From Arenibacter sp. F20364 (GTDB lineage: Bacteria > Bacteroidota > Bacteroidia > Flavobacteriales > Flavobacteriaceae): a stretch of DNA of 64,000 nt. The DNA is taken from positions 62,001 to 126,000 of the forward strand of contig NZ_JALKBD010000007.1 in NCBI RefSeq assembly GCF_023015905.1, given 5' to 3'. Every line of letters begins with the position of its first letter. Positions within the stretch are counted from its first letter, which is position 1. Positions 35,953-54,429 of the stretch are shown piece by piece. The position numbers and the translations under genes are program-made. The notes under the pieces were generated by a model. It was given only the letters and a program-made list of their open reading frames with translations. It did no database searches and was not told where the DNA came from.

Positions 35953-36093
35953 TATAAATTTTCAACATTTAAAATTACAGCCTTGTTCCAAATAAAAGAC
36001 CAAAATTTTTAATTTTATGCAAGCTCTCATGACAAAAGACTGCAATGTTTAAAATGCTCGATAAAGATAAAGCATATTTTACACATAAAAAGA

Positions 36094-36105
36094 TGACAAT
36101 TGTCA
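36094..36105. promoter_or_regulatory. perfect palindrome in the cyd upstream region
   Basis: TGACAATTGTCA, a perfect 12-base palindrome about 52 bases upstream of the second palindrome in the divergent region between the Cys-motif gene and cydA. Candidate operator of an unknown regulator. Confidence 0.4.
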
Positions 36106-36150
36106 GGTATTGGATCTATTTGTTTTTATTCGATTTAAATAAGTAACAAT

Positions 36151-36221: not shown

Positions 36222-37553
36222 ATGGAGGATATGCTCTTTTATGATAGAATGCAATTTGCCTTTACTATCACCTTCCACTATTTGTTTCCGCAACTTACAA
36301 TGGGACTCTCCCTGATCATCGTTTATTTCAAATGGAAATTCCTTAGGACCCGAATTGATTATTATAATGATGCCGCAAAATTCTGGATGCGGATCTTCGC
36401 CCTTAATTTTGCTATGGGGGTTGTTACCGGCATACCAATGGAATTCCAATTTGGCACCAATTGGGCCAAATTTTCCGAATTGACCGGAGGAATCATTGGG
36501 CAAACCTTGGCCATGGAAGGGATGTTTTCCTTTTTTCTGGAATCTTCCTTTTTGGGACTATTTTTATTCGGCGAAAAATTACTGGGACACAAATTACACT
36601 TTGTAACGGGTTTCTTGGTTTTTTTAGGTTCTTGGGCCAGTGGCTTTTTAATAATAGCCACGCATTCCTGGATGCAGCATCCGGTAGGATATGAAATATT
36701 GAGCAATGGTAAATTTGTGTTGAATAATTTTAGTGCCTTATTTTCCAACCCATGGCTCTTGCCCTCCTACTTGCACAATCAATTGGCAAGTTTGGTAACC
36801 GCATCTTTTGTAATGGCTGCCATAGGGGCCTTTTATATTTTGAACGACAGGCATAGTAATTTCGGTAAGCTATTTGTGAAGACAGGGGTAATAGTTGGAC
36901 TTGTTTCCTCTGTATTGGTAGCTTTTCCAACAGGAGATTGGGCGGCAAAAAATGTGGTGGAACATCAGCCGGTTACCTTTGCAGCCATGGAAGGACTATT
37001 TAAAACCCAGGATGGCGGGTCGGAAATCGTACTAATAGGACAGCCTAATGTAGTAGATAAAAAGCTGGACAATAAAATTGCGGTTCCCAATATCCTAAGC
37101 TTTTTAACCTATAAAAAATGGGATGCCGAAGTAAAAGGGTTAAATGAATTTGACCCGGAAAACTATCCCACCAATATTCCCGGATTGTATTATGCCTATC
37201 ATATAATGGTAGGACTAGGAACTTTATTTATTGGAATTATGGCCTTGGGGGCCTTTCAGTTATGGCGTAAAAAACTATACAGCACCAAATGGATCTTGTG
37301 GTCCCTGCTCTTCTTCCTTCCCTTTCCCTATATTGCCAATACCACTGGTTGGTATACGGCAGAATTGGGTAGACAGCCTTGGCTGGTCTATAACCTTTTG
37401 CGCACCTCTGAAGGAATTTCCCCAACCGTATCCTCCGGAAACACCTTGTTCACCTTATTGGGATTTATTGGATTGTACCTACTATTGGGAATGCTATTTT
37501 TGATCCTCGTAGGTAAAATTATAAATAAAGGACCTGTAACCTCTGAAGCTTAA
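36222..37553 (+). CDS. cydA: cytochrome bd quinol oxidase subunit I
   Basis: 443-residue inner-membrane subunit that oxidises quinol and carries hemes b558, b595 and d. Key residues fall at E. coli-like positions: His19 (heme b595), Glu99 and Glu107 (proton/heme pocket) and His185 (b558), with GWYTAELGRQPW near the C-terminal end. The quinol loop is short, so this is the short-Q-loop class. cydB follows after 2 bases. Bd oxidases need no copper and tolerate NO, fitting the surrounding NO/N2O genes. Confidence 0.96.
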   Translation: MEDMLFYDRMQFAFTITFHYLFPQLTMGLSLIIVYFKWKFLRTRIDYYNDAAKFWMRIFALNFAMGVVTGIPMEFQFGTNWAKFSELTGGIIGQTLAMEGMFSFFLESSFLGLFLFGEKLLGHKLHFVTGFLVFLGSWASGFLIIATHSWMQHPVGYEILSNGKFVLNNFSALFSNPWLLPSYLHNQLASLVTASFVMAAIGAFYILNDRHSNFGKLFVKTGVIVGLVSSVLVAFPTGDWAAKNVVEHQPVTFAAMEGLFKTQDGGSEIVLIGQPNVVDKKLDNKIAVPNILSFLTYKKWDAEVKGLNEFDPENYPTNIPGLYYAYHIMVGLGTLFIGIMALGAFQLWRKKLYSTKWILWSLLFFLPFPYIANTTGWYTAELGRQPWLVYNLLRTSEGISPTVSSGNTLFTLLGFIGLYLLLGMLFLILVGKIINKGPVTSEA

Positions 37554-38678: not shown

Positions 38679-38717
38679 GGATAAATTTGTCCGAAATAAG
38701 AATTAGAATTATATTTG
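38679..38717 (+). promoter_or_regulatory. rrf2 promoter with overlapping palindromic operator
   Basis: TTTG at 38686-38689 and TATATTTG at 38710-38717, 20 bases apart, fit the Bacteroidota promoter consensus exactly. The palindrome GGATAAATTTGTCC (38679-38692, one mismatched pair) covers the -33 element, so binding there would repress. A near-identical sequence lies upstream of the nos operon at 52011-52024, which suggests autoregulation by the Rrf2 protein. Confidence 0.62.
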
Positions 38718-38740: not shown

Positions 38741-39175
38741 ATGTTTTCAAAAGCCTGCGAGTACGGAATAAAAGCCACTATATACATAGCTGTAAAATCT
38801 ATGCACCAGGAGCGTGTAAGCCTTAAGGAGATTGCGGAAGAGGTAAATTCTCCCGTGGCATTTACCGCAAAAATATTACAATCTTTGGCAAAGAGTGGTA
38901 TAATAGATTCCCATAAGGGTCCCACTGGAGGATTTCAGATCGAGGAATCGAACATAGACGCCATTAAATTATACGATATTGTAAATGCCATTGACGGTGA
39001 AAAAATATTCGTTGGCTGTGGCTTGGGTTTGGAACAATGTGATGCCAGCCAGCCTTGTCCGGTACATGATAAATTTGTTGGGATAAGGGATAATCTTAAA
39101 ATTATGTTACAGAATACAAGCCTTTATGAGTTGGCAACAGGCCTGGATATTGGTCTAACCCACCTGAAAAGGTAA
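38741..39175 (+). CDS. Rrf2 family transcriptional regulator, NsrR-like
   Basis: 144 residues: winged helix at about 1-80 and three cysteines C93-x6-C100-x5-C106 as Fe-S ligands, close to the C-x5-C-x5-C of NsrR. NsrR-type proteins sense NO through a 4Fe-4S or 2Fe-2S cluster and repress NO-detoxification genes. Flanked by cydAB and by ric, hemerythrin and hemoglobin genes, so NO sensing is the best inference. IscR- or RirA-like sensing cannot be excluded. Proposed operators: its own promoter and the nos promoter. Confidence 0.85.
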   Translation: MFSKACEYGIKATIYIAVKSMHQERVSLKEIAEEVNSPVAFTAKILQSLAKSGIIDSHKGPTGGFQIEESNIDAIKLYDIVNAIDGEKIFVGCGLGLEQCDASQPCPVHDKFVGIRDNLKIMLQNTSLYELATGLDIGLTHLKR

Positions 39176-39242: not shown

Positions 39243-40244
39243 ATGCACAATTATAACATCAAATTCAATACCAATCCATCCATGGCAAACATCACTGACA
39301 AGCTCGTTGAAAAATACGTATCCCTCGGGGAAAATCCAGAAACATATCTCGAAGGGCTACTTCACGCAAAACCCATCACATATTGGGATTACGTAGAAGT
39401 GGACAGCCTACTTTCCCTTCAAAAACCGAGGACCAACTTTAAGGATGAGTCCATTTTTATCATGTACCATCAGGTAACCGAATTGTACCTGAAGATGATG
39501 TTGCACGAATTGCAGCAAATAGTTGGGAATCCAACCCCTTCTACCAAATTCCTAACTACCAAACTAGATCGTCTTATAAAATACACCTCTATGCTGATCA
39601 ATTCTTTTGATATTATGAAGGTAGGTATGGACTATGAGGATTATAATACCTTTCGTAAAACCTTAACCCCTGCCAGTGGATTTCAATCGGCGCAATTTCG
39701 ATTTATTGAACTGCATTGCACTTCCTTGGCAAACCTCATTAGCCATAGATTTAAAAAAGGGAGTTCCAAGAATCCGGATTTAAGGGAATGTTTTGAACAT
39801 ATTTATTGGAAAGATGCCGGAACAGATCCCAAAACCGGCCAAAAGACCTTGACACTTCAACTTTTCGAGGACAGATACCTGAGAGAACTGACTGAAACGG
39901 CCAAAACAGTAATGGGCCATACCCTGGAAGACAAACTGGCCCAACTCCCCTATGTCCCGGACGCCCTAAGAAACAGACTTCGCACCTTTGACCAACTATA
40001 CAACATTGATTGGCCCATGGTACATTTAAACACTGCCGAACATTATTTGGACAAAAAAGGGGAAAACAAGGAAGCCACTGGTGGCTCTGAATGGAAAAAA
40101 TACCTCCATCCAAAATATCAGCAACGTAAATTCTTCCCCGACCTATGGACGGAAACCGAAAAGAAAAACTGGGGAATTAACCACAAAAATAAACATTATG
40201 GAAGTATTGAACAGACCAGAATTGACGCACCTACAAGTAGGTGA
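39243..40244 (+). CDS. tryptophan 2,3-dioxygenase
   Basis: 333-residue heme dioxygenase of the TDO family, opening the indole ring of L-tryptophan to N-formylkynurenine. MYHQVTELYLKMMLHEL near residues 78-94 and SGFQSAQFRFIE near 143-154 are family signatures; a proximal His follows in the C-terminal half (NTAEHYLDKKG). Start at 39243 or at the ATG 39282. Its last 47 bases overlap the cupin gene in another frame. No other kynurenine-pathway gene is near; it sits inside an NO-defence cluster, which is unusual. A degenerate GGAC...GTCT site at 39194-39207 precedes it. Confidence 0.85.
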   Translation: MHNYNIKFNTNPSMANITDKLVEKYVSLGENPETYLEGLLHAKPITYWDYVEVDSLLSLQKPRTNFKDESIFIMYHQVTELYLKMMLHELQQIVGNPTPSTKFLTTKLDRLIKYTSMLINSFDIMKVGMDYEDYNTFRKTLTPASGFQSAQFRFIELHCTSLANLISHRFKKGSSKNPDLRECFEHIYWKDAGTDPKTGQKTLTLQLFEDRYLRELTETAKTVMGHTLEDKLAQLPYVPDALRNRLRTFDQLYNIDWPMVHLNTAEHYLDKKGENKEATGGSEWKKYLHPKYQQRKFFPDLWTETEKKNWGINHKNKHYGSIEQTRIDAPTSR

Positions 40245-40494
40245 AAATCTTAAAATATTACAGATCAAGGCCCAGGCCGGAACAGGTATGCCAGTACATC
40301 ACAGTACCCATGAGGCGGTAATTGTGGTCCAAGAAGGTGAAGCCATCCTTAAAACCAACAATGCCGATCATATCTTGAAAAAAGGAACCTCAATGCTCAT
40401 TCCTGCCGGAATGGAACACAGTCTTAGCATACTTAAAGAATTTAAAGCAATTGCCATAATGGCAAAAAATTCAAACATAAATTTTAAAAATTAA
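40198..40494 (+). CDS. small cupin domain protein
   Basis: 98-residue single cupin: MPVHHSTHEAVIVVQEGEA and GTSMLIPAGMEHSLSI give the two cupin motifs with His and Glu metal ligands. It starts at ATG 40198 inside the end of the dioxygenase gene (47-base overlap) and stops 5 bases before ric, so all three are likely co-translated. A cupin of similar size lies inside the nos operon (47108-47407). Function unknown; metal binding or sensing is possible. Confidence 0.82.
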   Translation: MEVLNRPELTHLQVGENLKILQIKAQAGTGMPVHHSTHEAVIVVQEGEAILKTNNADHILKKGTSMLIPAGMEHSLSILKEFKAIAIMAKNSNINFKN

Positions 40495-40499
40495 TAAAG

Positions 40500-41225
40500 A
40501 TGGAAAATTTAATGACTAAAAATATTGGTGAAATAGTCGCTGAGAACTACCGCACGGCCCAGATTTTCAAAGATCATAAAATCGATTTTTGTTGTAAGGG
40601 AAACCGGAGTATTGTAGAAGTGGCCGAAAAATATAAGCTCGACGCCAATCTCCTTTTGCAAGAAATTGAAACGGTACAGCATCAAATAAATGATAGCAGT
40701 ATAGATTTTAAAACTTGGCCCCTGGACCTATTGTCCGATTATATAGAAAAAAAACATCATCGATATGTAGAGGCACAAATACCAGTTTTAAATCAATATC
40801 TGGCAAAACTATGTCGGGTTCATGGAGACCGACACCCAGAACTATTTGAAATTACAGAGCATTTCAACAAAAGTGCAGGAGAACTGGCCATGCACATGAA
40901 AAAGGAGGAACTCATCGTCTTCCCTGCCGTGCGCAAAATGATACAGAGTAAACAATATGGAAGTGCATTGGCCGAGCAACATTTTGGCACCATTCAAAAT
41001 CCAATACAAATGATGATGCAGGAACATGAGAACGAAGGGGACCGATTTAGGATTATTGAGGAATTAAGTAATAATTACACCCCTCCTGCCGATGCCTGCA
41101 ACACCTACCGGGTAACTTTTTCACTGCTGCAGGAGTTTGAAGAAGATTTACATAGGCATATTCATTTAGAAAATAACATTCTTTTTCCAAAAGCCATTGC
41201 TTTGGAAAAAGAATTAAGCTCTTAA
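40500..41225 (+). CDS. ric: iron-sulfur cluster repair di-iron protein (Ric/ScdA/YtfE)
   Basis: 241 residues. The N-terminal ScdA domain has the FCCKG motif (C31, C32). The C-terminal hemerythrin-like domain holds the His/Glu di-iron ligands, seen in KHHRYVE, HGDRHPE, HMKKEE, EHENEGDRF and HRHIHLENNILFP. The protein repairs Fe-S clusters damaged by NO or oxidants and can reduce or release NO. Next to an NsrR-like regulator, as in many bacteria. Confidence 0.94.
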   Translation: MENLMTKNIGEIVAENYRTAQIFKDHKIDFCCKGNRSIVEVAEKYKLDANLLLQEIETVQHQINDSSIDFKTWPLDLLSDYIEKKHHRYVEAQIPVLNQYLAKLCRVHGDRHPELFEITEHFNKSAGELAMHMKKEELIVFPAVRKMIQSKQYGSALAEQHFGTIQNPIQMMMQEHENEGDRFRIIEELSNNYTPPADACNTYRVTFSLLQEFEEDLHRHIHLENNILFPKAIALEKELSS

Positions 41226-41418
41226 TGGTTGCCCAAAAAGCTCTGGAACAACATCCCCGGGCAGCCCAAGTCTGTAACCAAGAGGCCGCGGTATAATGCT
41301 TTGAAAAAAGTTTCCCCCACCGTGCCTCCTTGGATTACAACGATCCTGATCTAACAAGTATAGAACACTAATACTACTAACCTTAGAATTGGCCATAACC
41401 ATATAAAAACAATTTGAT

Positions 41419-41880
41419 ATGAAAGTTAAACCTATAAAAAGACATAAAGCCATACAACCTTTAAGTAGGGATCACCATCAAGGTTTATTATTATCATGGA
41501 AAATAAGGACCGGTTTTTCCAAAGGAGTTTCCACGGATCGGATAAAGACCTACGTTGATTGGTTTTATAAAACCCATTTGATGTCCCATTTTAAAGAAGA
41601 GGAAGAATACCTCTTTCCCATTCTTGGAAATGACAACGAGCTGGTTAAAAAGGCGATTTCACAGCACAAGAGGCTGAATCGCCTTTTCAGGAGTACAACG
41701 GAATTGGAAAAGTCCCTAAACCGAATAGAGGAAGAATTGGAAAAGCATATCCGTTTTGAAGAACGGGTGCTGTTCAATGAAATTCAGAAGGTGGCCACGG
41801 AACAACAATTGCTTTCTATTTTGGAACATCACGCAGACACCAAGTTTTTGGACAATACTACAGATAAGTTTTGGGAATAA
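41419..41880 (+). CDS. hemerythrin domain protein
   Basis: 153-residue four-helix hemerythrin: ligands in SRDHHQG, HFKEEEEYLFP, HKRLNRL and HIRFEERVLF. Unlike Ric it lacks the CC domain. It probably binds O2 or NO at a di-iron site. The 193 bases upstream hold no gene; GGAT-n7-ATCC at 41332-41346 is a weak palindrome. It is followed after 13 bases by a small membrane protein gene. Confidence 0.85.
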   Translation: MKVKPIKRHKAIQPLSRDHHQGLLLSWKIRTGFSKGVSTDRIKTYVDWFYKTHLMSHFKEEEEYLFPILGNDNELVKKAISQHKRLNRLFRSTTELEKSLNRIEEELEKHIRFEERVLFNEIQKVATEQQLLSILEHHADTKFLDNTTDKFWE

Positions 41881-41893
41881 AAACTAAAATATT

Positions 41894-42184
41894 ATGATTA
41901 CAAAACTTTACAATCTGCTTTTAAATGAATTTAAAAGAGAACAAACAGGATATTCCACCATTGCAATCATTGGTCAAAGTTGTATTGGATCTGTTGCCGC
42001 CATGGTAGTTCTAATGAACCACATGAACGCCGCAATCCAGTTGCCGTTACTTTTTCTTGTAACCATTCTATGCATGGCCTATAACGGTGCAGTTTTGTCA
42101 AGATTAAATGCCAAAATAACTTTTAACCTATTAGTCTTAAGCGTCCTTTTCAGTATCCTAACCATTGTTGGGAATCTTATTTAA
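41894..42184 (+). CDS. small membrane protein of unknown function
   Basis: 96 residues with three hydrophobic segments (about 22-42, 48-68 and 74-95) and a basic, soluble N-terminus. No family recognised. It lies between the hemerythrin and the ferredoxin genes, 13 and about 20 bases from them, so it belongs to that transcript. It may anchor the ferredoxin or a hemerythrin at the membrane, but nothing in the sequence proves it. Confidence 0.7.
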   Translation: MITKLYNLLLNEFKREQTGYSTIAIIGQSCIGSVAAMVVLMNHMNAAIQLPLLFLVTILCMAYNGAVLSRLNAKITFNLLVLSVLFSILTIVGNLI

Positions 42185-42204
42185 CATTGGAAAATAAAAC
42201 ATTA

Positions 42205-42546
42205 ATGAAGATAGAGACCTACACCTTTACTTATATCGATGAATTTGGGGATACCAATACCGCGAATTGTAGGCCAAACGAATACCATAGCCTTATGGAA
42301 CTTCTTTTCGACAAATATCTTCAGGAATGGGGTGATTGTAAAGGAAGGGCCTGGTGCGGAACATGTCATATACAAATAATGGAAGGCCATTCCAATACAA
42401 AAATCTTGGAAGATGAAGGGCACACCCTCTCCAAATTGAGCGGTTCCAATGCATGCAGTCGTTTAGCATGTCAAATTCCAGTTAATGCCGAATTACACCA
42501 AATGGCTTTTAGGATAATATCCGACAATGATTACGGCTCAAAATAA
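42205..42546 (+). CDS. 2Fe-2S ferredoxin
   Basis: 113 residues of adrenodoxin/putidaredoxin pattern: C-x5-C-x2-C in CKGRAWCGTC and a fourth Cys in RLACQIP. The beta-grasp fold matches FTYIDEFGDTNTANCRP at the N-terminus. It may feed electrons to the nearby hemerythrin, Ric or truncated hemoglobin; this is inferred from context. Start: ATG at 42205 preferred; a TTG at 42187 would add 6 residues. Confidence 0.84.
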   Translation: MKIETYTFTYIDEFGDTNTANCRPNEYHSLMELLFDKYLQEWGDCKGRAWCGTCHIQIMEGHSNTKILEDEGHTLSKLSGSNACSRLACQIPVNAELHQMAFRIISDNDYGSK

Positions 42547-42691
42547 TTCAGAAAAGGGAAAATAGAAAAAGTTAAAACCGTAAGTTTAAGTATACAAGGC
42601 CCCTAATACTTAATCTATGCGGCCAATTATTGAAAAATACAAATTTAACGGACTACCCTTACGGTATTCCCTGATAAATTAGATCAATCTT

Positions 42692-43090
42692 ATGTTGTTA
42701 AAGGCGGAAATAAAGGAGAGACAGGATGTGAACCTTTTGGTGGTCAGTTTTTATGCCAAAATAAGGAAACATCAAATACTGGGACCTATTTTTAATGGGA
42801 TCATCAAAGACTGGGACAGCCACTTGGAATTACTGACCGATTTTTGGGAAAGTCAATTACTCCTAAAACGAACTTATATGGGCAACCCCATTACCGTACA
42901 CCAAGAGGTAGACGAGAAAATGCATCACAGTATTACCCCAGAGCATTTTGGGCTTTGGCTTAACGAATGGTTTGCCACTATTGATGAACTATTTGAAGGG
43001 GAAGTGGCATGGATTGCCAAAAATAGGGCCCAAAAAATGTCCACTATGTTATATATGAACATCTACCAACACAGGAACAAGAGTCAATAA
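42692..43090 (+). CDS. group III truncated hemoglobin
   Basis: 132-residue 2-over-2 globin. FYAKIRKHQILGPIF in helices A-B, TYMGNPITVHQEV with the proximal His near residue 70, and HFGLWLNEWFATIDELFEG in helices G-H match the group III family. Members bind O2 and NO and are often induced by nitrosative stress. It is the last gene on this strand before the convergent nos operon. The 145 bases upstream may hold its own promoter. Confidence 0.88.
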   Translation: MLLKAEIKERQDVNLLVVSFYAKIRKHQILGPIFNGIIKDWDSHLELLTDFWESQLLLKRTYMGNPITVHQEVDEKMHHSITPEHFGLWLNEWFATIDELFEGEVAWIAKNRAQKMSTMLYMNIYQHRNKSQ

Positions 43091-43147: not shown

Positions 43148-44356
43148 CTAACTCGTACTGTTGCGATTGGATTGAAAAAATATCAATATCACAGCACTGG
43201 GAATTATAACACTACCAAGGGCAAGAAATATTGAATAACCTTCGAACATTGTCCATCCCAACCATGCTGTCATGCCCCTATAGAAAATAAGGGATTCGGT
43301 AATTATGAAGCCTAACAAATAAATAGTAAAAGCAGCCTTGGACAGTTTAAATAATCCAAAAAACTCCAAAAAGAAAAACAGCCCAACGGTGATTACCCCC
43401 AAAAAGGTCCAATGTAAATAGCCTATAGTAAAATCCAAAACTGTTGTCGCCAAATTAGCAAAGTAGGGCAAGGCAGTGAGCAATTGCAGTATCATTTTAA
43501 CCAGCAACAGAAAGGCTCCTAATTTTAAAATATTGAATTGAATTCGGGACAAGGCCGATTTCAATACGTCCCTATTTACAAGACAGATTTTTATCAGAAT
43601 CCCAAAGCCGATCAATTGTAATATAGCCCCAATCCCTCCCAAAATATAGTACATAAATCCGGGAGCTGTCCACAAGATGGATAAAAAAAAGCTCAATGTA
43701 ATGCCCAAAACCGTGTACCTAAAAAAGGACCTAAAAGTCCTGGTAGGAACATTGATCTGAAGTTGCTCCAACAGATAGAAAAGTAGTCCCGCCAAGGCCA
43801 TTATCATCCAACCGTTATACTGAAAATGTAAATAGAAGTAGATAGCCAATCGGTACCAAATGGATTCGGGTCCCAAAACGGTCATAATTGCACCCAAAGA
43901 CCAAGGCCCTACACTAGAGCCTATCATGAACCAAAGCGCTGTCTTGGCACAAATATAGGCCTTGGTTCCCATGAACGATTTGGGCGTGTATTTCATAAAA
44001 AAAGCAGAAAACCAATAGGAAGCAAAAAGGAATAGGGTGGAAAATACTATCGAAAACAAGGCATATCCCTGAAAGGGAAAGGATAACAGCATGCCTATTA
44101 AACATATCTGTGTAAACCAGAAAATACGACGATACTTCCTGTCCAAAGTCAGCTTGTCCATAAAAAGATGGTACAACAAGGTGGTCAGCGCAATATATAC
44201 CCAGCCCAAAAGTGCTATATGGGAGTGTGTATGCACTATAAACCTGTAATTGATCGGCATTGGGGCAACTACAAAAGTCCGCAATAAAACACCCAGTAGG
44301 GCGGCCAATAAAAAATAGCCTAGGGATACTTTAATATGGGTTTTGGCAACTATCAC
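43148..44356 (-). CDS. polytopic membrane protein with conserved-looking intramembrane histidines (heme-copper oxidase or NnrS-like, unassigned)
   Basis: 402 residues and about 12 helices. Histidines sit at helix starts: H42, H44 and H46 (VHTHSHIALLGW), H177 (YLHFQYNGW) and H315 (GYLHWTFLGV). The pattern recalls heme-copper oxidase subunit I and NnrS proteins, but the HxxxY, HH and HxH sets of a catalytic binuclear site are not present, so it is not a standard oxidase or NorB. It is the last gene of the nos operon, 31 bases after nosY. Possible roles: heme- or copper-linked quinol electron entry to the NosZ branch, or an NO-related sensor/transporter. No firm function. Confidence 0.72.
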   Translation of the reverse strand: MIVAKTHIKVSLGYFLLAALLGVLLRTFVVAPMPINYRFIVHTHSHIALLGWVYIALTTLLYHLFMDKLTLDRKYRRIFWFTQICLIGMLLSFPFQGYALFSIVFSTLFLFASYWFSAFFMKYTPKSFMGTKAYICAKTALWFMIGSSVGPWSLGAIMTVLGPESIWYRLAIYFYLHFQYNGWMIMALAGLLFYLLEQLQINVPTRTFRSFFRYTVLGITLSFFLSILWTAPGFMYYILGGIGAILQLIGFGILIKICLVNRDVLKSALSRIQFNILKLGAFLLLVKMILQLLTALPYFANLATTVLDFTIGYLHWTFLGVITVGLFFFLEFFGLFKLSKAAFTIYLLGFIITESLIFYRGMTAWLGWTMFEGYSIFLALGSVIIPSAVILIFFQSNRNSTS

Positions 44357-45170: not shown

Positions 45171-45873
45171 GATTGTGGTGGGTTGATATTGCCGCAATGG
45201 CATGTTCAAAATTGCTTTGTCCGGTTTTGGTCTTTAATTCGGCAATGCTGCCCTTAAAGTAAATTTTACCTTCAAGCAGGTAAACAATCTCATCGGATAC
45301 CTCTTCTACAAACTGCATAATATGGGAGGTAATTAAAAAGGTCTTCCCTTTTGCCTTTTCCTCAAAAATAAGCTCCTTGAGATGGATCAACGATAAGGGA
45401 TCCAGACCATTGGTGGGTTCGTCCAAAATAATCAAGGGACTGTCGAACATAAAGGTCAGTACAATATTTACCTTTTGTTTGGTTCCCCCGGAAAGGTTGC
45501 TCAATTTTTTATCCAAAAAAGGCTCCAACCCAAATAGGCCGATCAACTTTTGCTCATTGCTTGGTTTTTGCCTAATATCCTTTATCATCGCTATTAATTC
45601 CTTGACCTTTAAGTTTCCTGGAAAATTGGCAATTTGGGGAAGGTAGTTTATGTCTTGACGATATTTCCACTTATTTCTAACAGGGGAATCCATCACTGCT
45701 ATGGTCCCTTTATTGGGAATTACCATTCCCAGCAAAGTTTTGATCAATGTTGTTTTACCAGAACCATTGGGACCTAGGATGGCAAATATACCGCCTTGGT
45801 CTATATTGAGTTCCAATCCCGCCAATACCTCATTTTTACCGAACCTTTTATGTAGGCTTTCAACGTGTATCAT
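45163..45873 (-). CDS. nosF: NosF-type ABC transporter ATP-binding protein
   Basis: 236-residue ATPase: Walker A GPNGSGKTTLIK near residues 34-45, signature LSGGTKQKV near 128, Walker B LIILDEPTNGLD near 149-160 and H-loop TSHIM near 180. It partners NosY and NosD. Its start at 45873 overlaps the nosD stop by 4 bases. Confidence 0.94.
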   Translation of the reverse strand: MIHVESLHKRFGKNEVLAGLELNIDQGGIFAILGPNGSGKTTLIKTLLGMVIPNKGTIAVMDSPVRNKWKYRQDINYLPQIANFPGNLKVKELIAMIKDIRQKPSNEQKLIGLFGLEPFLDKKLSNLSGGTKQKVNIVLTFMFDSPLIILDEPTNGLDPLSLIHLKELIFEEKAKGKTFLITSHIMQFVEEVSDEIVYLLEGKIYFKGSIAELKTKTGQSNFEHAIAAISTHHNHD

Positions 45874-47108
45874 TTAATTTTTTTCATTAAGGGTTTTGAA
45901 TCAACTAATTCGTCCGGGGTAAAAACAGGGGATACTTTTTCTGAAAAATCAATAATATCCATAAACAGACTACGCAGTAGTATAATAGTTTCTGGGGTTC
46001 TGTTTACGATATAGGAAAATAATTTTACGGGTCTGTAGGGAATATCTCCGGTTCCGTTCCTATCCAGATCGTAGCCCGTATAATTGCTCCAAAAGTTCTC
46101 ATCAAAAATATTATCGTTCAGATTGCTGTTGTATGCCAGATCAAAAGAGTTGTACAAAAAATTGTTATGGTTAAAGGTGTTGGTATAACAGGCCCCACGA
46201 ACTTTGACGGCCCAACCATTTTTTATAAAATTGTTCTTTGAATAGTTTATTCTATTGGAGCCTTCAATGCTTATCCCAACCGTATTCTCTTCAAAGGTAT
46301 TGCCAATAATATCGGCATCATTGATCTCTTTCAGCAATACTCCAAACGAGGCCGTCCCCCAATTTTTCCTAAACGTATTGCCCAACATTTTTATCCTTTT
46401 GGAAAACATTACGGCTACCCCTGCCCCATTATTCTCAAAGGTATTGTCCTTATAGATATCATCATTGGAAAACATGAAGTGCAGTCCATATCTCAGGTTG
46501 TCCGAACTTATATTGTTTTCGATGGTGATATTGTCCGAAAACTCCAGATAGATGCCATCCCTTACATGTTGAACGATATTACGTTCCACAACTATATTCT
46601 GTGAATACCATAATTGTATGCCATTCCCGGAATTGTATTCATCCACGGCATCCCCAATGATCTTATTGTGGTAGACCTTTCCATTCTTGCTTTTTTCCAA
46701 ATAGATTCCAAAAAATAGCTTTTCCAGTACTACGTTCTGTATAAGAAAATTTTCGCTCCTCACCACCCTTATTGCCGCATAATCTGCCGTATAACTAGTA
46801 CCCACGTTTATAATGAAAAGACCGTCTATGGTAACATTATTGGATACTACGGTGATGATTTCCCCTTGATCTTCGCCATCTATAACGGGATAGTTCTCCC
46901 CAATAATGGCCAAGGGTTTGTTTACTTGGATGTTGAATTCCTTATAGATTCCTTTTTTAATCAAAAGCGTATCAAAATCTACTGCAACGGCTACACCCTC
47001 CTTAATGGTCTTCACCTCACATGATCCACAGACCGTGATGGTCCCTGCACGTAGATGATTGCCGAACAGCATTAATAGAAAGCAGAAAAGTACCCCTATT
47101 CTTCCCAT
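45870..47108 (-). CDS. nosD: nitrous oxide reductase maturation protein NosD
   Basis: 412-residue periplasmic protein: signal peptide (GVLFCFLLMLFGNHLRAG), then a right-handed parallel beta-helix of CASH/NosD repeats, seen as recurring NIVVERNIV-, ITIENNIS- and ADIIGNTFEEN-like turns. It delivers the ABC cargo needed to build the CuZ site of NosZ. The start codon overlaps the upstream cupin stop (TAATG). Confidence 0.93.
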   Translation of the reverse strand: MGRIGVLFCFLLMLFGNHLRAGTITVCGSCEVKTIKEGVAVAVDFDTLLIKKGIYKEFNIQVNKPLAIIGENYPVIDGEDQGEIITVVSNNVTIDGLFIINVGTSYTADYAAIRVVRSENFLIQNVVLEKLFFGIYLEKSKNGKVYHNKIIGDAVDEYNSGNGIQLWYSQNIVVERNIVQHVRDGIYLEFSDNITIENNISSDNLRYGLHFMFSNDDIYKDNTFENNGAGVAVMFSKRIKMLGNTFRKNWGTASFGVLLKEINDADIIGNTFEENTVGISIEGSNRINYSKNNFIKNGWAVKVRGACYTNTFNHNNFLYNSFDLAYNSNLNDNIFDENFWSNYTGYDLDRNGTGDIPYRPVKLFSYIVNRTPETIILLRSLFMDIIDFSEKVSPVFTPDELVDSKPLMKKIK

Positions 47109-48745: not shown

Positions 48746-50707
48746 CTATTCACCTAGGGACCAACTGAGCTCCAAATTGGAACTTGCAGGCGATACCCTA
48801 ACATAACCTTGCATCTCCTGGTGAAGTGCGGAACAGAAATCTGTACAATAGAACGGCCACACTCCTACTTGCTTCGGCTCCCAAACTATTGTCTTGGTCT
48901 GTCCGGGCATAATCAACAATTCGGAAGTGTTGGCACCTATTACAGCAAAGCCGTGTGGTACATCAAAGTCCTGTTCTTGATTGGTAACATGGAAATACAC
49001 CTTGTCCCCCACCTTAATACCCTCAATATTATCGGGGGTAAAATGGCTTCGGATGGTCGACATATAAATATGTACGTCCTTACCGTCACGTACCACTTTG
49101 GAATCTGCTGCCCCTAATGTTGCATAAGGGTGTTTATTGTCTGCAAGCTTATAGATCTTCTGTGATTTGGGCGCCAAGAGCTCGGCAGGAATTCCTGCTG
49201 CATAATGAGGCTCCCCATGGGTTGGAAAATCATAGATAAGTTCCATTTTGCCCCCTGAAATATCATACAATTGTGCGGAGTGTTCCAATTCCGGACCAGT
49301 CGGCAAATATCTGTCTTTGGTGATCTTGTTCATAGCCACCACATATTTACCAAAAGGTTTTCTGGAATTACCACCTGGTATCATTAAGTGGCCAACAGAA
49401 TAGTAGGTAGGTTTTCTATCGATAACTTCCCAGGTACCCAGTTTCCACATCACCACCTCCGAAGAGATAAAGAAAGTGGTGTAGGCATTACCCTCACCGT
49501 CGAATTCGGTATGTAAGGGCCCAAGACCTCCACTTTTTACAGTTCCGGCAAGTACATCCTCAAATTTCAGGATAGGAATTCCGTAAGCCTCCCCATCAAA
49601 TTTCTTACCTTCAATAGCAGCGATCATTTTATCAAAAGAATGTACCGTTAAATCCGCTGACAATTTTCCGTTACCAATAATATATTCTCCGGAAGGGTCT
49701 ACATCACAACCATGAGGTGATTTTGGAGTGGGCAGAAAGAATACCGCGCCAGGTACATCTAGTGGGTTTACTGTAAGTACTTCTTTTTTCATGGTACTTG
49801 TTGCAGTATGCGTAGACTCATCATATACATTATGCGCATAATTGGCGGGCATTTTTGTTCCCCCACCGTTGTTTACATACTCTTCGATTGCTTTCCAGTT
49901 AATAGCGGCAATAAAATCCTTATCATTCTGGGAAGAATTTACCTCCATAAGGGAATTTGCTTCTTCCGTATTATAGGTGGTAAAAAAGAACCAACCGTGG
50001 GATTTCCCCCTTCCAGGATGCGAAAGGTCATAGTTAAACCCTGGCATAATTATCTGAAACTTAAGATCCATATGACCGTGTTCAGGATCGACACTAATAA
50101 AAGATAGTGCACCCTTAAAATTGCCTTTGTACTCGTTAATGGGCATATCACGTTGTGGAACGGGTACAGAAAAACGGGTTCCTGCAACCACATACTCGGT
50201 ATTTTCAGTAATAAAGGATGAACTGTGGTTACCTGCACTATTTGGCACCTCAATGATTTCTTCGGTTTCAAAAGTGGTCAGACTTATCCTTGCAATCCTT
50301 GGCGTATTATTTCCGTTTATGAATATCCATCTTCCATCCAATTCACCATTGGTCTGGGAAATATCAGGGTGGTGGGAATCGTCCCATGGAACAAAGCCAA
50401 AAGAGGTGTTCAACATTGGCTTGGTCTCCTCCGAATAGCCGTATCCAGAGGTGGCGAACTGTGAAAATACGGGTATTTCCTTGAACATTCGTCCAGAGGG
50501 CAAGCCGTAAACTGTTAGGTTGCCACTATATCCACCAGACATAAAAGCGTAAAACTCGTCATGTTCCCCTGGAGCCACATAGACTTTCTCTGCATTGCTC
50601 GAATTCAATGCTCCGGAAGAACTTTTGCCTTGGTTACCGTTACCGCAACTAGTCAATAAGGCGGTAAAGCCCAAGAGTCCCAATACTAAATAGGTATATT
50701 TCTTCAT
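48746..50707 (-). CDS. nosZ: nitrous oxide reductase, clade II (Sec-exported)
   Basis: 653-residue periplasmic copper enzyme reducing N2O to N2. The N-terminus is a Sec lipoprotein-like signal (LLTSC, Cys21) without twin arginine, the mark of clade II NosZ. CuZ histidines are in the seven-bladed propeller: SHHPD (H112, H113), KSHGWFF, SPHGCDVDP, GPLHTEFD and GEPHYAAG. CuA is at the end: C621-x3-C625-x3-H629-x2-M632, with DVPHGF supplying another His. It is third in the operon after cytochrome c and fasciclin genes. Confidence 0.97.
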   Translation of the reverse strand: MKKYTYLVLGLLGFTALLTSCGNGNQGKSSSGALNSSNAEKVYVAPGEHDEFYAFMSGGYSGNLTVYGLPSGRMFKEIPVFSQFATSGYGYSEETKPMLNTSFGFVPWDDSHHPDISQTNGELDGRWIFINGNNTPRIARISLTTFETEEIIEVPNSAGNHSSSFITENTEYVVAGTRFSVPVPQRDMPINEYKGNFKGALSFISVDPEHGHMDLKFQIIMPGFNYDLSHPGRGKSHGWFFFTTYNTEEANSLMEVNSSQNDKDFIAAINWKAIEEYVNNGGGTKMPANYAHNVYDESTHTATSTMKKEVLTVNPLDVPGAVFFLPTPKSPHGCDVDPSGEYIIGNGKLSADLTVHSFDKMIAAIEGKKFDGEAYGIPILKFEDVLAGTVKSGGLGPLHTEFDGEGNAYTTFFISSEVVMWKLGTWEVIDRKPTYYSVGHLMIPGGNSRKPFGKYVVAMNKITKDRYLPTGPELEHSAQLYDISGGKMELIYDFPTHGEPHYAAGIPAELLAPKSQKIYKLADNKHPYATLGAADSKVVRDGKDVHIYMSTIRSHFTPDNIEGIKVGDKVYFHVTNQEQDFDVPHGFAVIGANTSELLIMPGQTKTIVWEPKQVGVWPFYCTDFCSALHQEMQGYVRVSPASSNLELSWSLGE

Positions 50708-50741: not shown

Positions 50742-51323
50742 TTATTCTGTAGTAGGTAGCATTACCTTATCTACCACATGGACTATTCCATTGCCTGCAG
50801 GCACACTGGCCAAAATTTTAGCGCCACCGACCATAACATCTTCCCCTACTACCTCAACGGTAACGTTCTGATCATTGGCCTGCCCCAATTTTTTAAATTT
50901 CTTTAGAAATTCCTTGCTGTAATTGCCCGGAGTTACGTGGTACTTTAAAATATTGGCCAATGCATCTTTGTTTTCTGGTTTTAGAAGATCGTCCACAGTG
51001 CCTTCCGGTAACGCGGCGAAAGCCTCATTAGTCGGGGCAAATACCATTAAGGGCCCAGCATTCACCAAAGCGTTTTCCAATTCCGCTGCCTGTACTGCGG
51101 CCACTAAGGTGGAATGGTCCGGGGAGCCTATGGCAATTTGCAGAACATTGGGTGTTGAACCATCATCGGCAATAAAGGCCTGGCCTTGTTTTTCAACTTC
51201 TTCCGTTGCTGCATTGTCCTGAGTTGGATTCGTTGCTGTCTTAGCTTCGTTTTTACAACTGAACAAAACGCCCAGCAGTAGAAACGATAACATAAATGAT
51301 TTTAAATTGGTTGTCGGGAACAT
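50742..51323 (-). CDS. fasciclin domain lipoprotein
   Basis: 193 residues: lipoprotein signal (GVLFSC, Cys23) and one FAS1 domain with TLVAAVQAAELENAL and LMVFAPTNEAFAALP, ending in NGIVHVVDKVMLP. FAS1 domains mediate adhesion or ligand contacts; in flavobacteria they often accompany nosZ and cytochromes. It lies 34 bases before nosZ. A function in holding or donating to NosZ is a guess. Confidence 0.85.
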   Translation of the reverse strand: MFPTTNLKSFMLSFLLLGVLFSCKNEAKTATNPTQDNAATEEVEKQGQAFIADDGSTPNVLQIAIGSPDHSTLVAAVQAAELENALVNAGPLMVFAPTNEAFAALPEGTVDDLLKPENKDALANILKYHVTPGNYSKEFLKKFKKLGQANDQNVTVEVVGEDVMVGGAKILASVPAGNGIVHVVDKVMLPTTE

Positions 51324-51335
51324 AATGTTATATTA

Positions 51336-51842
51336 TTATAAGGTTCTAAAGTATTCCAATACTGCTCTGGCCTGTTCTTCGGTAAGACCTTGATTGGCCA
51401 TTGGCGCACCGTTAAACTCGGCCAATAAAGCTTTTGCCAAAGGATCTTCCTTTACCATGCCCTCAGGATTCAAAATCATGTTCATCACCCATTCAGGGCT
51501 ACGTCTTTCCAAAATACCTGTTGGGGCAGGTCCTATGAATTTTTTGTCTACCCTATGACAGGCCAAACACATCTGATTGTAAACTTCCTCCCCTTTTTTG
51601 GCCATTTCCTGATCCACTTCTGCCACCAAGCTTACCGAGGTAATGGGCCCAACACCCTTGTTGGTCAAATCCACGGTTTCGGATGCCTTGGTTGTTACAG
51701 CCGCTGGTTCAGGAGCAGGTTGTTCCGTTGTGGTTTTTGCCCTATCCACACTAAATCCTTCTTTTTTCTTTTCTTCCTTACCTCCACAGCTCATCATCAA
51801 AACCGAAAATAGAACTGCGCTACCTTTTAAAATTATTTTCAT
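51336..51842 (-). CDS. monoheme cytochrome c lipoprotein
   Basis: 168 residues: lipobox ending MMSC (Cys19), a flexible linker rich in Lys, Thr and Ala (about 22-70), then a class I cytochrome c domain with C92-x2-C95-H96 (CLACH) and Met148 as the likely sixth ligand (GAPMAN). It is the first gene of the nos operon, so it is the probable electron donor to NosZ. Its promoter region has two palindromic sites. Confidence 0.9.
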   Translation of the reverse strand: MKIILKGSAVLFSVLMMSCGGKEEKKKEGFSVDRAKTTTEQPAPEPAAVTTKASETVDLTNKGVGPITSVSLVAEVDQEMAKKGEEVYNQMCLACHRVDKKFIGPAPTGILERRSPEWVMNMILNPEGMVKEDPLAKALLAEFNGAPMANQGLTEEQARAVLEYFRTL

Positions 51843-51961
51843 TTGTTTTTCCTTTAATTGTTACAGATCACTTGTTTCTTAATTATTAATACTATTTAAA
51901 TTGGTGATAATAAAACTGTCGGATTTAAAAATCATTCCTTGGTTTTAACAATTTATTGGGA

Positions 51962-52024
51962 CAAAATTAGGCTGTCATTAAACCATAAAACATGATAAAA
52001 ATCATATTTAGGATAAAAATGTCC
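51962..52024 (-). promoter_or_regulatory. nos operon promoter with FNR/DNR-like box and Rrf2-like operator
   Basis: Minus-strand -7 element TAATTTTG (51969-51962). Upstream are ATGAT-AAAA-ATCAT (51992-52005), matching the FNR/DNR consensus TTGATnnnnATCAA except its outermost bases, and GGATAAAAATGTCC (52011-52024), nearly the rrf2 operator. Centres lie about -43 and -62 from the predicted start, 19 bases apart. The rest of the 591-base stretch 51843-52433 shows no gene. Confidence 0.6.
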
Positions 52025-52460
52025 TTTTTTTGATCTTTTTTCCAATTAGAAATATATGGCCGTACCCTAATTTGAAAATAATTCCCCGCAATTAAAATTA
52101 AACCCTTGTTTTTCAATATGGTATATCCCCTAAAATTATGGATTGAATTTTCTGGAAGGATAGGAAATAAGGCTACAGCATCGGTCTTTTAAATCTTTTA
52201 CATATCTTAGTAAAAGCACTTACAGAGAAACATCTGTGCTATTGGCCCGCGATATTATTGAGGGCCATTTCATTATACTTTCAATCTTAAAATTGAAGGC
52301 CCCAGAAAGGAACTAAATAATGGTTTGTAATTATGTTTATTGGTCTATTGTCAATTAACGTTTGGCCGGTACTTTTTGATCCTTTATATTTTTTTGATTA
52401 TTAATCGCGGCATACGCTCCTTTCAAAATAGCCTTGTGCCCCATAGTGAACTTGTATTTT

Positions 52461-52940
52461 ATGACGAATTACGATATCATTATCGATAAGGAAAAAATCG
52501 TTTTAAGTCCGATGGATATAGCCTCTTTGGACATTGTTAAAATTAGCGACCGGCAATTCCATGCCCTTCGACAGAACCGGGCCTATAAAATCAAAATCTT
52601 ACATACAGATTTTGCGAACAAAAGAATGACATTGGAGGTAAATGGCAGTAGTTATGAATTGGCTTTAGCAGATAAGTATGATCAAATGGTGGACAAAATG
52701 GGGTTGTTAACGGCCAAAACCCATAAAATAAACAGTATTATAGCCCCAATGCCAGGTCTTATAATAGATATCATGGTAACAACAGGTCAGAAAGTGGTAA
52801 TTGGCACTCCCCTTATTGTGCTATCGGCCATGAAAATGGAGAATATCATCACTTCCTCCGGAGAAGGCATCGTAAAAAGTATAAAAGTCAATGTAAACGA
52901 AGCAGTTGACAAAGGACAGATTATAATTGAAATGGAATAG
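52461..52940 (+). CDS. biotin carboxyl carrier subunit of acyl-CoA carboxylase
   Basis: 159 residues with a C-terminal biotinyl domain; the biotin-accepting Lys125 lies in SAMKMEN. The N-terminal about 70 residues form a separate domain (IVLSPMDIASLDIVK). It carries the carboxyl group from the biotin carboxylase encoded 7 bases later to the carboxyltransferase after it. I start it at ATG 52461; a TTG at 52434 adds 9 unrelated residues. Confidence 0.9.
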   Translation: MTNYDIIIDKEKIVLSPMDIASLDIVKISDRQFHALRQNRAYKIKILHTDFANKRMTLEVNGSSYELALADKYDQMVDKMGLLTAKTHKINSIIAPMPGLIIDIMVTTGQKVVIGTPLIVLSAMKMENIITSSGEGIVKSIKVNVNEAVDKGQIIIEME

Positions 52941-52947
52941 CCATAGC

Positions 52948-54429
52948 ATGAAGATGGAAAAAATATTGATAGCCAACCGGGGAGAAATAGCTTTACGCAT
53001 CATGCGGACGGCACAAAAGATGGGAATAAAAACAGTGGCGGTCTATTCTGATGCCGATAGGGAAGCTCCCCATGTACGATTTGCCGATGAAGCAGTTCAT
53101 ATAGGAAATTCACCTTCTACGGAATCCTACTTGAATATGGACAAAATTGTGGAAGCAGCCTTAAAAACCAAGGCCCAAGGTATTCATCCTGGCTATGGCT
53201 TTTTAAGTGAGAATGCCGTTTTTGCCCAGCTGGTAGCTGATAACGGAATTACCTTTGTAGGCCCTAAACCACATGCCATAAGAGTTATGGGCGATAAATT
53301 GGCGGCCAAAGAAGCGGTTAAGGGTTATAATATTCCTATGGTACCCGGCATTGAAGAGTCCATTACCGAAATTTCCGTGGCCCAGAAAATATCCAAACAA
53401 ATAGGGTTTCCCATTTTAATAAAAGCCTCTGCTGGTGGCGGTGGCAAAGGAATGAGGGTGGTTCAACAACTATCCGAATTGCCCGATCAAATGGAACGTG
53501 CCATCAGCGAGGCCGAGGCAGCCTTTGGAAATGGCGCCGTCTTTATTGAAAAATACATTGAATCTCCAAGGCATATAGAAATCCAAGTATTGGCCGATAC
53601 CCATGGAAACATTTTTCATCTTTTTGAGCGGGAATGCAGTATACAGAGAAGACATCAAAAGGTTGTGGAAGAGGCTCCATCCGCCGTATTGACCCCAAAA
53701 ATAAGAGACGCCATGGGAAAAGCTGCCATAAAAGTAGCCAAGGCCTGTGATTATGTCGGGGCGGGAACGGTGGAATTCCTATTGGACAGTGATAAAAATT
53801 TCTATTTTTTGGAAATGAATACCCGTCTACAGGTAGAACATCCGGTAACAGAACTGATTACAGGTATTGATTTGGTGGAACAACAGATCAAAATTGCCAG
53901 AAATGAAAAACTGGCATTTTCACAGCAAGATTTGAGCATAAAAGGACATGCCCTGGAAGTTAGGGTCTATGCAGAAGACCCCTTGGACAATTTTCTGCCC
54001 AGTATGGGCAATTTGGAAACCTATAAGCGCCCCAAGGGCAAAGGAATAAGATTGGACGACGGTTTTGAGGAAGGAATGACCATACCCATGTATTACGACC
54101 CCATGTTGGCCAAATTAATTACCTACGGCCAAGACAGGGATGAGGCCATTCAGCTAATGATCCAAGCTATATCGGAATATAAGATAAAGGGGATATCCAC
54201 TACCCTGCCCTTTGGGAAGTTTGTTTGTGAACACAAAGCTTTTACTTCTGGGGAATTTGACACCCATTTTGTTAAGAAATACTACACTCCGGAACTGTTG
54301 CACCAACAATATGCGCAGGAGCGCGAAATTGCAGCCATGGTAGGATTGAAACTATTTTTGGAACACAAGGATATTCTTAAAGTTCCCGATCGCGAAAATT
54401 CCAATTGGCCATTAAAACGGACTAAGTGA
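52948..54429 (+). CDS. accC: biotin carboxylase subunit of acyl-CoA carboxylase
   Basis: 493-residue ATP-grasp biotin carboxylase: ILIANRGEIALRIMRTA at the N-terminus, ATP loop KASAGGGGKGMRVV near 157-170, catalytic EMNTRLQVEHPVTE near 285-298. It carboxylates biotin on the carrier with ATP and bicarbonate. It is longer than typical AccC (about 450), which suits the propionyl/acyl-CoA carboxylase type. ATG at 52948 or 52954; it follows the carrier gene by 7 bases. Confidence 0.93.
   Translation: MKMEKILIANRGEIALRIMRTAQKMGIKTVAVYSDADREAPHVRFADEAVHIGNSPSTESYLNMDKIVEAALKTKAQGIHPGYGFLSENAVFAQLVADNGITFVGPKPHAIRVMGDKLAAKEAVKGYNIPMVPGIEESITEISVAQKISKQIGFPILIKASAGGGGKGMRVVQQLSELPDQMERAISEAEAAFGNGAVFIEKYIESPRHIEIQVLADTHGNIFHLFERECSIQRRHQKVVEEAPSAVLTPKIRDAMGKAAIKVAKACDYVGAGTVEFLLDSDKNFYFLEMNTRLQVEHPVTELITGIDLVEQQIKIARNEKLAFSQQDLSIKGHALEVRVYAEDPLDNFLPSMGNLETYKRPKGKGIRLDDGFEEGMTIPMYYDPMLAKLITYGQDRDEAIQLMIQAISEYKIKGISTTLPFGKFVCEHKAFTSGEFDTHFVKKYYTPELLHQQYAQEREIAAMVGLKLFLEHKDILKVPDRENSNWPLKRTK

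Follow-up and report, generated by a model that had tools for sequence, protein, structure and literature searches.

Clade II nitrous-oxide reducers belonging to the Bacteroidota provide a natural greenhouse-gas sink. Clade II nos clusters on metagenome scaffolds and in related genomes have been associated with genes of the Rrf2 family, the role of which is described as hard to predict, and the regulation of clade II N2O reducers as little known outside the Proteobacteria (passages of PMC6264515). Among the systems that have been characterized are the NsrR regulons of gamma- and beta-proteobacteria, Bacillus and Streptomyces, and the control of denitrification by regulators of the DNR, NnrR and FNR type (PMC1274295, in part). 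Crp/Fnr-class control, with the motif TTGA-N6-TCAA, has also been proposed for clade II nosZ in Nitrosophilus (excerpts of PMC11539149), and for NsrR of S. coelicolor it is reported that the fourth ligand of the cluster is Asp8, contributed by the partner subunit (sections of PMC5411485). The components of the locus described here are of these known kinds. However, the passages of PMC6264515 give, alongside the association with Rrf2, no operator, activator site or regulon, whereas here an operator can be specified together with its spacing, as can a second Rrf2 clade whose genes lie elsewhere. In titles, abstract openings and passages of the literature we found no description of the Rrf2 operator or of the two-site pair, and within that material no earlier account was found of the sites with their fixed geometry, of how widely they occur across the pathway or of an apparent change of regulator.

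The stretch of 64,000 nucleotides from Arenibacter sp. F20364 that was analysed as a whole (hereafter the window) carries on its minus strand a nos operon, which is identified as a clade II operon by a Sec-dependent NosZ scoring above the family cut-off. This NosZ is 94–96% identical to NosZ at three named Arenibacter loci. Promoters of the Bacteroidetes are built from a TTTG element at -33 and a TAnnTTTG element at -7, and the latter is found upstream of nos together with two further sites:

45870 to 47108, minus strand: nosD (TIGR04247, 431 bits against a cut-off of 300)
48746 to 50707, minus strand: nosZ, Sec-dependent (clade II) nitrous-oxide reductase (TIGR04246, 934.7 bits against a cut-off of 625)
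50742 to 51323, minus strand: second nos operon gene, for a fasciclin-domain protein (PF02469)
51336 to 51842, minus strand: c-type cytochrome, first gene of the nos operon (PF00034)
51962 to 51969, minus strand: -7 element of nos, TAATTTTG, of the TAnnTTTG type, 22 nt from the box
51992 to 52005, minus strand: putative Crp/Fnr-type activator box ATGATTTTTATCAT (ATGAY-N4-RTCAT), centre near -41
52011 to 52024, minus strand: putative Rrf2 operator GGACATTTTTATCC, centred at about -60 with its dyad 19 bp away from that of the box, the same palindrome as at rrf2

Along the minus strand the promoter has the form GGACATTTTTATCC-TAAAT (N5)-ATGATTTTTATCAT-N22-TAATTTTG. On the plus strand the two sites read ATGATAAAAATCAT (51992-52005) and GGATAAAAATGTCC (52011-52024) and start 19 bases from each other, in agreement with an earlier note on this DNA, which had reported two sites at that distance upstream of a -7 element. 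The same note had pointed out that the second site is two bases off a site covering the -33 element of an rrf2 gene 13 kb away, and this too is borne out by the sequence, the rrf2 site GGATAAATTTGTCC differing from the nos operator in two bases and containing TTTG. The features of the rrf2 region are as follows:

38679 to 38692, no strand assigned: putative Rrf2 operator GGATAAATTTGTCC, covering the rrf2 -33 element (TTTG at 38686-38689)
38710 to 38717, plus strand: -7 element of rrf2, TATATTTG, 17 nt past the operator and 20 nt past TTTG
38741 to 39175, plus strand: rrf2, Rrf2-family regulator of 144 aa with C93, C100, C106 and H109 (PF02082, 91.4 bits against 30)
39243 to 43090, plus strand: genes 3' of rrf2 on the same strand, among them the NO-defence genes, with co-transcription suggested by strand and spacing
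40500 to 41225, plus strand: RIC iron-sulphur repair protein
42692 to 43090, plus strand: group III truncated haemoglobin (matches 2ig3, E 3.5e-10)

The genes that follow rrf2 encode a tryptophan 2,3-dioxygenase-like protein, a cupin, RIC, a hemerythrin, a 96-aa membrane protein, a [2Fe-2S] ferredoxin and the group III truncated haemoglobin. The reading frame at 39243-40244, between rrf2 and the NO-defence genes, is one that we take to encode tryptophan 2,3-dioxygenase; the same dioxygenase-like protein recurs near rrf2 in other genomes and, if the assignment is true, could provide NAD by a route that avoids Fe-S enzymes sensitive to NO. Positions 43148-44356, which lie between the nos genes and the rrf2 group, encode a 402-aa multi-spanning protein, NnrS-like by eye, which gave no match to Pfam or NCBIfam and has relatives near rrf2 in some other genomes.

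Conservation in orthologous promoters had been named in the earlier note as its own test, and the pair of sites passed it in several settings. With a free spacer of 3 to 9 nt, the exact pair was found in a set of 397 Flavobacteriaceae genomes at 29 places in 29 genomes, against none for the reversed control. The spacer was 5 at 25 of these places, 6 at three and 4 at one, and their contexts are nos (24), nirK (3) and a gene for a small membrane protein (~100 aa) that has a Crp/Fnr gene as neighbour (2). Within the window's genus, the pair precedes nos in 18/18 genomes, at up to two mismatches and with a spacer of 5 or 6. From a panel of 100 genomes, 48 gave a nosZ match, of which G061 was excluded (match 37% identical); among the remaining 47 the pair was detected upstream of nosZ at up to two mismatches in 36, the upstream length scored being 1.5 kb for 20 of the 47 and up to 2.2 kb for the rest. 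The corresponding shuffle controls gave 0/235 (plain) and 0/940 (dinucleotide). The nosZ genomes without the pair at this threshold are G024, G033, G039, G048, G050, G054, G059, G062, G066, G076 and G083; in G054 the pair is present on another contig, and the scored contig has only 213 bases upstream. Since no control match was seen in 397 genomes or in 940 dinucleotide shuffles, a chance origin of the nos pair is removed, and comparative sequence analysis thus confirmed the two-site promoter of nos as a real regulatory module.

The site closer to the -7 element had been described as an FNR/DNR-like box at a class II activator position. The conserved form of this box is ATGAY-N4-RTCAT, which is exact at nos in 18/18 genomes of the genus, and both half-sites co-vary to ATGAC/GTCAT at nos of G009 and G013. 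The FNR/DNR consensus TTGAT-N4-ATCAA was rejected for the box, and the earlier designation was in this respect too specific, while its Crp/Fnr-type and class II aspects are retained. TAnnTTTG begins exactly 22 nt past the box in 35/36 pair-carrying nos promoters and at 23/27 family loci, with no other offset found within 40 nt of the box. The same distance is seen in 11/11 genus nirK promoters with an exact box, this measurement covering 11 of the 13 loci and excluding L321 and L322, which are without one. Such a fixed distance from the box to the -7 element points to a class II activator position, and the box has the look of a site for a class II activator with a broad regulon. The likeness to DNR, NnrR and FNR lies in a Crp/Fnr-class activator at denitrification promoters; the differences lie in the form ATGAY-N4-RTCAT, in the TAnnTTTG promoter on which it is placed and in its pairing with a putative repressor site. 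Other boxes of this genome are also accompanied by TAnnTTTG, L113 on both sides and another at 23 nt, the latter ahead of a gene that presumably encodes a class II ribonucleotide reductase.

This genome has 18 cNMP-domain matches, and the recognition-helix pattern TE[ST]xIR is common to three proteins, namely L128 and L129, which are response-regulator/Crp fusions, and L130, which has an N-terminal CxxC. The L128 and L130 types are the two candidate activator classes in this genome, and none of the 47 nosZ genomes is without both of them: the L130 type is absent in six and the full-length L128 type in 12, never both. Because boxes are retained both in genomes without the L128 type and in genomes without the L130 type, presence and absence do not decide the activator, and the partner of the box could be either of the two Crp/Fnr classes. 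Around the fusion L128 itself there are five exact ATGAY-N4-RTCAT boxes in 19 kb (L277, G000:C11:78000-97000), among genes that we take to encode acetate kinase, phosphotransacetylase and universal stress protein, so that this region looks like a fermentation and anoxia cluster. Within the window, ATGACAATTGTCAG (36093-36106), one mismatch from the box and without TAnnTTTG at 22 nt, lies upstream of an ORF at 36222 that we read as cytochrome bd subunit I.

The second nos site carries the marks of an Rrf2 operator, in support of what the earlier note had proposed. The palindrome GGAYA-N4-TRTCC is found at up to one mismatch before 39/48 rrf2 relatives (25 of them exact) and, in the window, over the -33 element of rrf2 itself. 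A -7 element lies 17 nt past the strict operator in 26/37 rrf2 promoters, and the Crp/Fnr-type box is exact in only 1/48. These 48 promoters, from the group outside the nos-divergent one, yielded the extended operator consensus tttAattagGATAAatTTGTCCgaaaTaaaA. The broader form RGAYA-N4-TRTCY, at up to one mismatch, occurs within 140 nt upstream of its own gene for 38/40 nos-divergent rrf2 genes and 49/60 others, with 82/87 placed 28–64 nt upstream of rrf2. The exact GGAYA-N4-TRTCC is present at 25 places in this genome, 23 of which are neither rrf2 nor nos. Since 21 of the 23 fall within ORFs that are 80 codons or longer, single operator matches elsewhere carry little weight, and a wide Rrf2 regulon in this genome was rejected.

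The window regulator had been called an NO-sensing Rrf2 repressor. Membership of the Rrf2 superfamily stands, with TIGR00738 at 90.5 against 73.3 in addition to the PF02082 match, and NO sensing is a function that we infer from the company of its gene. The protein misses the equivalog cut-offs of both NsrR (PRK11014, 28.3 against 182 bits) and IscR (TIGR02010, 56 against 207.55 bits). The residues C93, C100, C106 and H109, in the spacing C-X6-C-X5-C-X2-H that conforms to the Cys3-His pattern of IscR, are invariant in 100/100 distinct relatives, and its N-terminal residues C6, E7 and Y8 may be compared with the NsrR ligand Asp8. As IscR uses Cys104 and His107 and NsrR uses Asp8 of the partner subunit (PMC5411485, in part), the set looks IscR-like, with C106/H109 reproducing the histidine three residues past the last of three cysteines. 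Thus, the protein is like NsrR as a putative Rrf2-family repressor linked to nitrogen-oxide genes, but lies far below the NsrR model cut-off and has another candidate for the fourth ligand, H109; from IscR it differs in its score and in its neighbours, which are NO and denitrification genes. Its weak PDB sequence matches include IscR chains, ranked behind CymR.

We noted that the position of the operator relative to the box varies between promoters. It lies upstream of the box at nos and over the -33 element at rrf2. At nirK of L170, L174, L184 and L220 (three Flavobacterium and one Flavobacteriaceae MAG) the order is box, 6 nt, operator and then TAnnTTTG, with the 22 nt from box to -7 kept in 4/4, and in 2/5 of a set of inverted loci beside a fasciclin gene the operator likewise falls between box and -7. 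A site resembling the operator (RGAY-N7-TCC, with one or two departures from its consensus) is present just downstream of -7 in 9/11 genus nirK promoters, and norZ of G013 and G009 has the operator with no box within 260 bases. That the operator floats while the box stays locked is the behaviour expected of a repressor and the strongest clue for repression. Furthermore, the extended operator (about 28 bp) runs into the box, the dyads being 19 bp apart, so that the two proteins should compete.

These observations can be accommodated in a model in which a Crp/Fnr-class activator would bind ATGAY-N4-RTCAT at the class II position near -41, replacing a -33 element, and a dimeric Fe-S Rrf2 repressor would bind RGAYA-N4-TRTCY with its dyad 19 bp upstream of that of the box. 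At class II promoters the alpha subunit of RNA polymerase lands beside the activator; the operator would cover that place, and bound Rrf2 should exclude both the activator and the alpha C-terminal domain of RNA polymerase. Damage to the Fe-S cluster, most likely by NO, would cause Rrf2 to leave the DNA, and nos would be expressed once Rrf2 is gone, provided that the activator is also active (low O2). AND logic, as the earlier note had suggested, would be the best reading of nos; rrf2 and the NO-defence genes have an operator but no box and should hence need one signal, whereas the respiratory genes should need two. We consider it probable that the nos promoter is doubly controlled by a class II Crp/Fnr activator and an Fe-S Rrf2 repressor, and that it is of a kind common to many Flavobacteriaceae; the identity of the binding proteins, the direction of effect and the signals are in each case deduced from sequence. 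As counterpoints, 11/47 nosZ genomes are without the pair and 2/13 genus nirK loci (L321, L322) without an exact box, and the operator-box spacing is nearly fixed, a constraint that cooperative binding would produce as well.

IscR-type dual regulators are able to recruit RNA polymerase synergistically. By this precedent the Rrf2 protein could be a co-activator at nos, acting from a class I position near -60 beside the class II activator at -41 in synergistic recruitment of RNA polymerase, as the operator centre, the near-fixed dyad spacing of 19-20 bp and the Cys3-His set shared with IscR (Cys104, His107; sections of PMC5411485) would allow. We regard this as unlikely, given that the same operator covers -33 at rrf2 and that an activator is not expected to work either from between box and -7, where the operator lies at nirK of L170, L174, L184 and L220, or from downstream of -7, the place of the operator-like site at genus nirK. 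Under the preferred reading, with Rrf2 as repressor, the module specifies the exact bases at which to introduce mutations and points to two candidate classes of activator and to a single candidate repressor. It also predicts the genes that require one signal and those that require two, so that the control of a greenhouse-gas sink becomes testable.

The assignment of nos to the window Rrf2, made in the earlier note, has to be qualified, because a different Rrf2 gene adjoins nos at 37/90 nos places. This genome is without one there: its two Rrf2 matches are the window protein and a distant one at 32%, neither of them beside nos, and a search for an rrf2 remnant beside nos in 51850-53200 found none (best match 17 residues, E 0.017). 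At G053:C9:108006-108359 (L111) a broken Rrf2 copy, interrupted by a TAA and reduced to open frames of at most 46 aa, stands beside nosZ, possibly a late state of such a loss. The promoter module co-occurs with two Rrf2 subfamilies: in a tree of 100 proteins, built on 144 columns and with many forks unresolved, 37/40 nos-divergent Rrf2 proteins form one clade (clade A, support 96/94), and the window Rrf2 (clade B) groups with ric-, haemoglobin- or dioxygenase-linked ones across a branch of support 99/91. As the window Rrf2 is mostly 32-40% identical to the nos-adjacent proteins, it may not read the nos operator. The first base of the operator is A in 32 and G in five cases with an adjacent rrf2, and A in 20 and G in 33 without, a count that covers 90 of 94 nos places (four with too little flank being excluded) and is only a hint since the genomes are related. 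The nos operator has been kept in the genus, most simply because the window rrf2 would read it. We tentatively propose a single flavobacterial denitrification code, with the box locked 22 nt from -7, an Rrf2 operator abutting it on either side or placed downstream, and NO-defence genes bearing the operator only; a paralogous Rrf2, also controlling the NO-defence operon 13 kb away, might then have taken over the nos operator in the genus of the window after the nos-adjacent Rrf2 went missing. This combined proposal is plausible rather than probable. If true, the take-over places the respiration of N2O and the defence against NO under the same repressor. The module also offers a natural example of an operator that may have persisted after its regulator was lost.

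Alternatively, the nos operator could be a relic of a lost nos-adjacent Rrf2 of clade A, with only the Crp/Fnr box still working in the genus. In favour of this, both Rrf2 matches of this genome lie away from nos and no remnant was found there. However, the pair is kept at up to two mismatches in 18/18 genus genomes, 15/18 genus nos operators begin with GG, the start that predominates among clade B autoregulatory sites, and operator-like sites are present at genus nirK, which together make a relic quite improbable. Chance resemblance of AT-rich sequence is exceedingly improbable and already refuted for the pair at nos, by the empty controls for the exact pattern in 397 genomes and in 940 shuffles and by spacings fixed across genera and gene types, although single sites elsewhere may be chance. 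In the window, TTGATNNNNATCAA at up to two mismatches gives 66 matches against 65.6 expected and GGAYAWWWWWRTCC at up to one mismatch five against 5.4, so that loose matches in the window alone are explicable by chance; exact GGAYAWWWWWRTCC is confined there to the two reported sites, at nos and rrf2. A genus search at spacer 5 and up to two mismatches likewise recovered 16 of the 18 nos places together with 14 matches elsewhere, against nine control matches.

The pair was also detected at other genes of the pathway. A scan of named genomes gave at least 117 stretches, and the 80 matches listed were classified by context, with labels from tblastn and ORF reading and family models for proteins of L189, L171, L146, L149, L174 and L319. 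Among these 80 listed of at least 117, 38 lie at nos, 10 at nirK, two at nor, four at a membrane-protein/haemoglobin cluster and five in inverted order beside a fasciclin gene, the genera represented including Arenibacter, Flagellimonas, Winogradskyella, Aestuariibaculum, Salinimicrobium, Gramella and Flavobacterium. All 54 listed matches in the first four of these classes have a spacer of 5 or 6, whereas the remaining 21 of the 80 have spacers scattered between 3 and 9, as expected by chance. TAnnTTTG at 22 nt is found in 48/59 of the placed loci listed against 0/21 of the others, and a count over all 80, chance and inverted loci included, gives 42. NirK at L189 and NirK of this genome (L319) were confirmed by TIGR02376, and a match to PF22085 confirmed the L171 NO reductase; the Salinimicrobium counterpart of the window haemoglobin is 53% identical to it, and the small membrane proteins are 45% identical. 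The nirK gene of this genome carries both kinds of site. The circuit had been proposed for N2O reduction; judging by these contexts the module is not nos-only, as nirK, nor and the truncated-haemoglobin cluster carry it in relatives.

At L149, L177, L179, L209, L342 and L360, a Crp/Fnr protein of 196-198 aa is encoded beside a module that precedes the small membrane protein, and at the Salinimicrobium loci of this set a truncated haemoglobin adjoins. The two of these proteins that were read, from L149 and L342, have the recognition helix RVETVIR, and the best match of this protein among the 18 of the window genome is 28% identical. In G009 and G013 (L028, L029) the autoregulatory site of rrf2 is degenerate (GGACAAGGCAATCT, GGACAAAGCAATCT) and the nos and norZ operators are intact, possibly reflecting a change of autoregulation. 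Finally, in a member of the genus, L282 (G004:C1:596725-596757) has the arrangement GGATATAAATATCC-N5-ATGACAGAAGTCAT followed by TAGGTTTG at 22 nt, ahead of genes that we take to be nadA and nadB of NAD synthesis.
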